Of a DNA stretch of 22,540 nucleotides, positions 6 through 1,618 are shown in pieces. Position numbers and translations under genes: made by a program. The notes below the pieces were generated by a model that made no database searches, had not been told where the DNA came from, and saw only the letters and a list, made by a program, of their open reading frames with translations. This DNA is from a virus. The stretch is taken from positions 1-22,540 of the IMG/VR virus record IMGVR_UViG_3300042383_000526; one strand, written 5' to 3'. How positions within the stretch are numbered: position 1 is the first letter of the stretch; each line of letters opens with the position of its first letter.

Positions 6-209
6 ATGGTGCAACGTAACCCAGAACACTACCAAGAAAAGACTGGCACTATGATGCTGGTTGAACGGATGACAGAACGCCAGTACGAAGAATGGTTTGA
101 ACGTGCTGCCATTATGGAGCACATGGGACGATTGACAAGAAAAGACGCTGAATGGTTAGCAGCACTTGATGTGTTGCGTGATGTTTTACCACAAAGAAAG
201 GCAAAGTGA
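6..209 (+). CDS. small hypothetical protein, possibly cut at the window edge
   Basis: I do not recognise this 67-residue protein. It is rich in charged residues (Glu, Arg) and predicted mostly helical, with the sequence MTERQYEEWFERAAIMEHMG in its middle; there is no membrane segment or signal peptide. The frame is open to the window edge, so the true start may lie upstream. ATGs at 51, 54 and 69 are alternatives, and none has a clear ribosome binding site. Its TGA overlaps the ATG of the ssDNA-binding protein gene (TGATG), so the two are probably translationally coupled in the same early operon. The coding frame is supported by that coupling and by base use matching its neighbours. Confidence 0.6.
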   Translation: MVQRNPEHYQEKTGTMMLVERMTERQYEEWFERAAIMEHMGRLTRKDAEWLAALDVLRDVLPQRKAK

Positions 210-535
210 TGGAATACAATGGAGAACTCGTGCACATCGGTGCAGTTGAGCAGATTACAGACACGTTCCGAAAGCGCATCATTGTTGTGCTGAACAACAG
301 TGGCAAGTACCCAAACGAAGTGTCATTTGAACTGGTGCAAGACAACGTGCGCATTGCAGATGACTTGCGTGTTGGTGATCTTGTTGATGTTGTGTTTGAT
401 GTTCGTGGACGTGGTTTCAAGCGCAAGGACGGAACACAAGGATGGATGAATAGCTTGCAAGCATGGCGTGTCACCAAGCACGCAACACAACCACAAGCAA
501 ACCCATACCCACAGTTTGACAATGCACCATTCTGA
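209..535 (+). CDS. single-stranded-DNA-binding protein, DUF3127-like
   Basis: This 108-residue protein has the strand-rich, OB-fold-like pattern of DUF3127 proteins, small phage and bacterial ssDNA-binding proteins. The core runs from the first strand (GELVHIGAVEQITDTFRKR) through a central VSFELVQDN segment to DLVDVVFDVRGR. The C-terminus is a Gln/Pro/Asn-rich linker ending in FDNAPF, which resembles the acidic-hydrophobic tip of bacterial SSB (ending DIPF) that recruits partner proteins. The start is ATG 209, overlapping the upstream stop; a GTG at 206 would add one residue. It sits with the nuclease and replication initiator, which fits a role in coating ssDNA during phage replication or recombination. 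The family call rests on pattern recognition. Confidence 0.75.
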   Translation: MEYNGELVHIGAVEQITDTFRKRIIVVLNNSGKYPNEVSFELVQDNVRIADDLRVGDLVDVVFDVRGRGFKRKDGTQGWMNSLQAWRVTKHATQPQANPYPQFDNAPF

Positions 536-833
536 CATGTTCACAGCACTATTGCGAGCGCAGAAGTTACCACTGCCATCGACTGAACACCGTTTCCATT
601 CAACACGTCGCTGGCGTTTTGATTACGCATGGGTTGAACATCGTGTTGCGTTGGAAGTTGAAGGTGGTGTGTGGATTGGTGGCAGACACACAACTGGTGC
701 TGGGTTCGTGAAAGACATGGAGAAATACAACGAAGCTGCATGCATGGGCTGGCGCATTATCAGATGCCAGCCCAAGCAGCTGTGCAAGATGGAAACAATT
801 GACACGATCAGAAGGGCACTGGAATGGCAGTGA
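522..833 (+). CDS. small PD-(D/E)XK endonuclease, Vsr/DUF559-like
   Basis: A 103-residue protein resembling the small Vsr/DUF559-type nucleases common in phages. The likely active site is Asp34 in RRWRFDYAW, followed by Glu45 and Glu47 in VALEVEGGVW. A conserved-looking GRHTTGAGFVKDMEKYN segment and a terminal WRIIRCQP strand follow, as expected for the core of the fold. Family members nick or cut DNA, for example at mismatches or branched structures; the exact substrate cannot be read here. The frame extends upstream to a GTG at 468, but that segment overlaps the SSB gene and is low-complexity His/Thr, so I take ATG 522; ATG 537, just after the SSB stop, is equally possible. The 3' end overlaps the next gene by 10 bases. 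Confidence 0.72.
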   Translation: MHHSDMFTALLRAQKLPLPSTEHRFHSTRRWRFDYAWVEHRVALEVEGGVWIGGRHTTGAGFVKDMEKYNEAACMGWRIIRCQPKQLCKMETIDTIRRALEWQ

Positions 834-1618
834 AAGAATGGTTCCCACATGACTACCACGCAACACGTGATGTCAAGATCATGCGAATGATTCGTGAGGG
901 TGGTGCAGCGTGTTATGGGTTGTACTGGCACGTGGTGGAGATGCTGCACTACACACCAGATGCAACCACTGCTGATGTTGCAGATTCGTTGCAAGTGGTG
1001 ATGCGAGTGTCACAACAAGAGGCACAACAAGCACTGCACATGTTCGTGCAACATGGTCTTTTCGAAGTGACAGACAACGATGAAGTGAAGTGTGAACGCA
1101 TTAAACGTAACATCATGGCACGCAATGAAGTTAGCACCAGACGCAAGCAAGCAGCTGCAAAGCGCTGGGATGCAAATGCAATGCAAATGCAATGCAAACC
1201 AGATGCAAATGCTATGCTATTACATAACATAACAGAACAGAATAAGAAAGAAGAAAAGAACAGTGGTAGTGTGCGCAAGCGCACCACGCACGCAAGGCCA
1301 GTTGATGATGCAGAGTGCATTGCGTACTTTGCTGAACTGAACATGCCAGCAGCAGAGGCGCAACGTTTCACGGATTACTACACCGCTAATGGCTGGCGTG
1401 TCGGACGCAATCCCATGAAGGATTGGAAAGCAGCAGCACGGAACTGGCGCAAGGGGTTCAACGATCGTGTTGCACAGCAACAACCAACGCAAGCACGAAC
1501 AGCACCACAAGGATTGCCAAAGCACGTGGTTGAAATCGCGAATAGGCCGAAACTGTCACAAACCGACGTAGACGCGTTCAAAGCCGCGTATCTGTCCAAA
1601 GTGACGCCAGACGAATAA
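824..1618 (+). CDS. phage replication initiator / replisome organiser, DUF4373 (Lin1244/Lin1753-like)
   Basis: This 264-residue protein opens with the typical DUF4373 pattern: WFPHDYHATRDVKIMRMIRE, then GLYWHVVEML and a winged-helix-like segment ending in HGLFEVTDND (about residues 1-95). A basic helix (ARNEVSTRRKQAAAKRW) and a low-complexity linker (about 114-155) follow. The C-terminal domain contains FTDYYTANGWRVGRNPMKDW followed by KAAARNWRKGF, a signature also seen at the ends of many phage replication proteins. Such proteins bind the origin and load helicase. The linker DNA carries tandem 11-bp repeats and an A-rich tract that may be the origin itself, as in lambda O. It overlaps the nuclease gene by 10 bases; GAAGGG upstream can serve as ribosome binding site. 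DnaD-like organiser is the alternative label. Confidence 0.8.
   Translation: MAVKEWFPHDYHATRDVKIMRMIREGGAACYGLYWHVVEMLHYTPDATTADVADSLQVVMRVSQQEAQQALHMFVQHGLFEVTDNDEVKCERIKRNIMARNEVSTRRKQAAAKRWDANAMQMQCKPDANAMLLHNITEQNKKEEKNSGSVRKRTTHARPVDDAECIAYFAELNMPAAEAQRFTDYYTANGWRVGRNPMKDWKAAARNWRKGFNDRVAQQQPTQARTAPQGLPKHVVEIANRPKLSQTDVDAFKAAYLSKVTPDE
1170..1262 (+). other. candidate replication origin: 11-bp iterons plus A-rich unwinding tract inside the initiator gene
   Basis: Tandem 11-bp units are seen directly: ATGCAAATGCA at 1170 and again at 1181, ATGCAAACCAG at 1192, ATGCAAATGCT at 1203 and a decayed ATGCTATTACA at 1214. The following DNA to about 1262 is nearly free of C and very rich in A (ACATAACATAACAGAACAGA, then AAGAAAGAAGAAAAGAA). 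Because 11 is not a multiple of 3, successive units encode different residues, so the repetition is conserved as DNA rather than as a protein repeat. Iterons about one helical turn apart beside an easily melted tract, within the initiator's own linker, is the architecture of the lambda origin in gene O. The origin function is an inference. Confidence 0.6.

Follow-up and report, generated by a model that had tools for sequence, protein, structure and literature searches.

Origins of iteron plasmids contain direct repeats that are bound by the initiator and lie beside an AT-rich element; such iterons, at about 17-22 bp, exceed in length those described here, and their normal place is not within the rep coding sequence. 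In phage lambda, the iterons to which the O protein binds lie midway in gene O, and the AT-rich tract beside them undergoes unwinding (PMC7466680). An origin inside the initiator gene is an already known kind, represented by lambda, the Stx phages and SPP1, and in-gene origins have so far been known from a few model phages. Here we analyse an IMG/VR virus record of 22,540 bases, linear by class, which in its full length is referred to as the window. Our conclusion is that positions 1170-1262 very probably constitute a phage replication origin of the lambda-like type, which is embedded in the linker-coding part of the initiator gene and in which dyad iterons of 11 bp lead to a half-site and an A-rich element for unwinding; its binding by the initiator, its melting and its function as the start site are what we infer. 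The features of the region, all on the plus strand, are as follows.

206-535, plus strand: gene of a single-strand DNA-binding-like protein (DUF3127), a neighbour from the replication/recombination module (PF11325, E=8e-18; phrog_4932)
824-1618, plus strand: replication initiator gene, 264 aa (ORF list, Pfam, PHROG), encoding an N-terminal domain (aa 6-83), a linker (aa ~105-155) and a C-terminal domain with the motif NGWxVGxNPMKDWKAAxRxW
1170-1180, plus strand: iteron 1, ATGCAAATGCA, core TGCA-AA-TGCA with inverted arms round an AA centre (sequence, TRF, consensus)
1181-1191, plus strand: iteron 2, ATGCAAATGCA (sequence, TRF, consensus)
1192-1202, plus strand: iteron 3, ATGCAAACCAG, divergent, 7/11 (sequence; unit-by-unit frequencies)
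1203-1213, plus strand: iteron 4, ATGCAAATGCT, 10/11 (sequence; relatives; substitutions)
1214-1219, plus strand: terminal half-unit ATGCTA, in the 11-bp register and bordering the A-rich tract (register in 34/35 representatives)
1220-1262, plus strand: tract rich in A and poor in T and C, presumably the DNA unwinding element (composition; suppressed synonymous change in relatives)

The initiator gene of the window and its iteron array

The initial annotation had described the initiator as DUF4373-type, and this is confirmed by the Pfam profile PF14297 (Lin1244_N/DUF4373), which matches aa 6-83 with E=5.2e-8 and a score of 33.9 bits against a curated cut-off of 25. The protein also matches phrog_15768 and phrog_2562, "replication initiation protein" in PHROG, and its C-terminal stretch matches families found in phage replication proteins. 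No direct match of the window initiator to an O-like PHROG was obtained; its relatives mEp515 gp16 and YdaU match phrog_345 / phrog_678, "replication initiation O-like". In the structure model, the N-domain is helical and confidently predicted (pLDDT about 92), and a disordered linker, in which residues 123-155 mostly have a pLDDT below 50, joins it to a separate C-terminal domain. A fold search of the PDB gave nothing significant, the weak matches being of winged-helix, DnaD and ORC type (best E 0.015), and a sequence search of the PDB returned matches to ribosomal S7 only, which we rejected as chance-level. The motif NGWxVGxNPMKDWKA is common to most of the 80 viral loci that were retrieved by protein search. 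Within the window, no gene for a helicase or a helicase loader was recognised beside the initiator gene. In relatives, the initiator gene adjoins a gene for a DnaB-like helicase in L474, for a DnaC-like loader in L476 and for YdaV, likewise a DnaC-like loader, in L477, and the nearest relative of the window (L001) has a Sak4-like gene upstream.

The best-scoring TRF array of the window (1170-1217, period 11, 4.4 copies, score 66) lies in ORF 824-1618, where it occupies codons 116-132 in the linker-coding region, downstream of the N-domain and ahead of the C-terminal motif. The 11-bp period runs out of phase with the codons, as had been stated earlier. The same annotation had counted four near-identical units followed by a decayed fifth. 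The four positions (1170, 1181, 1192 and 1203) stand, but only the first two units are identical. In relatives, too, no full unit varies more than the third, according to the unit-by-unit frequencies, and the fourth is perfect in L001 and L002, two near relatives of the window. The supposed decayed fifth unit, where the sequence from 1214 reads ATGCTATTACA, has to be replaced by a conserved terminal half-unit, ATGCTA, in exact register. When the codons of the linker or of the whole gene were shuffled, the observed lag-11 identity was never matched (0/5000 and 0/2000, respectively), and synonymous recoding of the same peptide reached it in 20 of 5000 cases (about 0.004). The encoded peptide itself thus favours an 11-nt repeat, and the repeat of the single gene is only moderately significant. 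It is the comparative data presented below, and not the window gene alone, that put the repeat far beyond chance.

The tract that directly follows the repeats is indeed A-rich and C-poor, as had been noted: positions 1220-1262 consist of 63% A and 12% C, with 74% A+T, and they form, overlapping windows apart, the most A-rich 43 nt on either strand of the 22.5 kb. The GC skew is monotonic across the window and does not point to a start site, the contig being partial and the array close to one of its ends.

Arrays in related initiator genes

We scanned IMG/VR and genome contigs with probes consisting of two tandem units at period 11. Tandem TGCAAATGCA was found at 48 IMG/VR loci and tandem TGCGAACGCA at at least 120, whereas the reversed string of tandem TGCAAATGCA was found at none, which rules out that tandem strings of this kind are simply common. 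The viral arrays reside almost exclusively in one class of gene: according to N-domain profiles, 161 of the 175 are housed in DUF4373/DUF1376 ORFs. All 189 arrays assigned to this class, including those from bacterial genomes and that of the window, have the sense orientation, and they use all three codon phases (0/1/2: 18/15/156), so that one DNA repeat encodes peptides as different as DANAMRTH, CERNANA and MRTHCER. Among 140 cluster members tallied by Pfam and PHROG, 52 were DUF1376, 35 Lin1244_N and up to 65 "primosomal protein". Comparison of the DUF4373 and DUF1376 N-domain profiles (hhalign probability 87.5, E 3.6e-6) indicates that they are probably homologous. The scan of genome contigs was noisy, with 39 of 66 arrays outside DUF4373/DUF1376 genes, many of them in Bradyrhizobium. 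The Bradyrhizobium contigs (L265, L270, L274, L282, L290, L300, L301 and L308) carry tandem TGCGAACGCA in chromosomal, apparently non-phage surroundings, probably as an interspersed repeat that is unrelated to the phage arrays. Four DUF1376 genes (L170, L176, L192 and L201) have a further tandem TGCGAACGCA pair within the N-domain coding sequence, where it encodes IRMRTHCERIA; in L170, L176 and L201 the linker array follows about 160-190 nt further downstream.

For an unbiased sample, loci were picked by their N-domain protein alone and clustered to 25 DUF1376 and 25 DUF4373 representatives, whose 180-nt linkers were compared with control windows from the same loci, scoring TGCRAAYGCA units with one mismatch allowed. 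At least two such units were present in 23/25 DUF1376 and 9/25 DUF4373 linkers (32/50), compared with 10/4160 control windows. Irrespective of the unit sequence, a lag-11 similarity of at least 14/20 was found in 38/50 linkers and in 36/2801 control windows. The typical array has three or four 11-bp units, followed by a half-unit in register and an A-rich, T-poor tract; the half-unit [AT]TGCT[AC] was in the 11-bp register in 34/35 representatives, compared with a background of 0.001 per position. Every expectation of the initial annotation that could be checked on sequences held: linkers of relatives have their own period-11 repeats with an A-rich tract behind them, and the case that it had named as refuting, in which the same domains occur but the repeats do not, is limited to about 2-3 of the 50 representatives. 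These belong to the DUF4373 set, in which about 2-3 of 25 (L385, L391 and perhaps L364) lack a clear array. Many DUF4373 linkers (L330, L338, L344, L356 and L387) have an (AAAGG)n-like purine tract with a 5/10-bp period just past the half-site. The L334 linker contains an in-frame 12-bp array, eight copies of AGCAATGCAG, which still ends in ATGCTATAAAGG.

The sequence of the iterons varies among relatives. The dyad reads TGCA-AA-TGCA in the window and TGCG-AA-CGCA in most relatives, with the consensus arms conserved. In the TACGAACGTA-type iterons both arms have changed together, while the period is still 11 and the half-site reads AATACTA (L331 and L356). The linkers of the 80 viral loci hold repeats of several kinds. 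There are CAAGCAGAAGT units in L046 (DUF6291), and among named phages AGGGTCATGAT units at 11 bp in mEp515 (E. coli K-12) and AATACAAATGT units in Porphyromonas phage005b. With an N-domain of another type, the iterons differ as well. In L003, the C-terminal domain is 71% identical to that of the window, the N-domain is DnaD-like (phrog_2514), and the linker reads, every 11 bp, GCAACAGAAGT AAAACAGAAGT CAATCAGAAGT GCAACAGAAGT GCAACTA. This gene (L003:1258-2136) is a natural domain swap, in which a window-like C-terminal domain is combined with a DnaD-like N-domain and with other 11-bp iterons. Three loci with other N-domains (L042, L054 and L057) repeat parts of their linkers every 21-22 bp, or about two turns of the helix; a period of 21 bp would also fit whole codons, so that a protein repeat is possible there.

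It is likely that one layout, in which several dyad iterons recur about once per helical turn and are followed by a half-unit with TA at its end and by an A-rich tract, and which is written in any codon frame, is common to DUF4373 and DUF1376 initiators and, as far as the repeat period indicates, to DUF6291 and DnaD-like ones, with the iteron TGCRAAYGCA kept in phages and prophages of several bacterial phyla and with the origin sequence following the N-domain. If true, the origin and the binding specificity of many uncharacterised phages would be readable from sequence.

Selection on the DNA and the possible function of the array

Homologous genes that are 45-95% identical were compared for the share of identical amino acids that use different codons. 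This share was 42.0% in the N-domain and 43.2% in the C-terminal domain, outside the array and the tract. It fell to 13.2% in unit 3 plus the half-site and to 14.8% in the A-rich tract, for which the test is free of circularity, and to 3.9% in units 1-2, for which it is partly circular, the arrays having been located by their motif. Pairs that are 70-95% identical gave 24.1% and 27.5% for the N- and C-terminal domains, 1.3% for units 1-2, 3.2% for unit 3 plus the half-site and 5.8% for the tract. Synonymous change is therefore suppressed several-fold across the array and the tract.

Firstly, the initiator may bind its own coding sequence for the control of transcription, by autoregulation or as a roadblock, with replication starting elsewhere. 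Tandem dyads in the gene of a regulatory protein would suit autoregulation, and so would the fact that every array is oriented as its gene. However, the mid-gene position is unusual for an operator, which would have no need for a conserved A-rich tract and a half-site in fixed register, and the known in-gene arrays of such a layout, those of lambda and SPP1, are origins (PMC7466680, PMC6316719). An operator instead of an origin is unlikely in our view; the two roles could coexist.

Secondly, the constant sense orientation would also be expected of an RNA element in the initiator mRNA, that is, hairpins or a protein-binding site regulating translation, and the RNA of positions 1160-1265 folds somewhat better than shuffled sequences (z = -2.2). 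However, a TGCR-AA-YGCA hairpin would have a loop of two bases, or three pairs with a loop of four, and the A-rich tract is predicted to be single-stranded. Moreover, the border formed by the half-site and the strictness of the 11-bp period, a helical one, indicate DNA, and the lambda equivalent works as DNA. We judge a role as an RNA element to be very unlikely.

Finally, an ordinary low-complexity protein linker, whose codons repeat by chance and whose DNA has no function of its own, would fit the disorder of residues 123-155 and the 20 of 5000 recodings mentioned above, but the same DNA in three reading frames gives unrelated peptides, the half-site stays in register and synonymous change is suppressed, and the use of all frames together with the synonymous-site test excludes a mere protein repeat, which leaves this explanation with hardly any credibility.

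The replication origin remains the preferred reading, and its mode of action may, on the model of lambda, be envisaged as follows. The four 11-bp iterons would present the same face of the DNA at each helical turn, so that the N-terminal domain, which may be winged-helix-like, could bind them side by side, and the fixed half-site ATGCTA would set the border to the A-rich tract. Formation of this nucleoprotein complex would lead to melting of the tract at 1220-1262, after which the C-terminal domain could bring in the helicase or its loader, and replication of the phage would start at the array.

Comparison with known in-gene origins

In the open-access papers we did not find a description of the layout present in the window; subscription papers were outside the scope, and the term "undescribed" is provisional. 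In the same literature DUF4373 never appears alongside replication, Lin1244 does not appear at all and DUF1376 is mentioned only in passing. The exact origins, that is, sites, border and unwinding tract, can now be predicted for several hundred environmental phages and prophages with initiators annotated only as "DUF4373" or "DUF1376". As mEp515 of E. coli K-12 and ydaU of Rac are among them, the predictions are testable in laboratory strains. That the array ends in a half-site and that the iterons change with the N-domain are specific, checkable statements on how such origins are built and how their specificity evolves.

Gp16 of mEp515 (Lin1244_N) and YdaU of the Rac prophage (DUF1376) belong to the same initiator classes as the window protein and have linker repeats, but their iteron sequences differ from those of the window and the spacing in ydaU is irregular. 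No origin is annotated in the mEp515 or ydaU records. The ydaU gene of E. coli K-12 (L477:5620-6477) has linker repeats of the GTTCAAACA/GATGTT type and adjoins ydaV, and its repeats are possibly the Rac origin.

Other systems share parts of the layout. Iteron plasmid origins resemble the window in combining direct repeats with an AT-rich element. The Francisella phage KIRK has a putative in-gene origin with repeats in its Phg_2220_C replication gene, which its authors termed lambda-like (PMC7924643); its initiator is of another family, and the origin is a prediction only. In the Bacillus phage SPP1, oriL is located in gene 38, which encodes the origin-binding protein gp38, and has direct repeats and an AT-rich unwinding element within that gene (PMC6316719). 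However, SPP1 has a different initiator and a second origin, oriR, as well.

A close parallel is the lambda ori in gene O, together with those of the Stx phages P27 and 933W: inverted-repeat iterons lie in the middle of the initiator gene, and an A-rich tract follows directly (PMC7466680). For P27, synonymous recoding that leaves the protein as it is has already been carried out (PMC7466680). The array had been said to lie exactly where lambda gene O carries its iterons, and the positions agree well, the annotated lambda iterons being located at about 39-48% of gene O and the window array at about 44-50% of its gene. The tracts are also similar in composition, with 57% A in lambda and 63% A in the window and the same A+T content of 74%. 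On the other hand, lambda has 18-bp dyads with starts 20-24 bp apart, whereas the window has 10-bp dyads every 11 bp and a terminal half-site, and the window initiator, with its DUF4373 N-domain, does not match the O family directly. Taken together, the linker repeats in relatives, the A-rich tract, the suppressed synonymous change and the lambda-like position support the reading of the array as a lambda-like origin inside its initiator gene.
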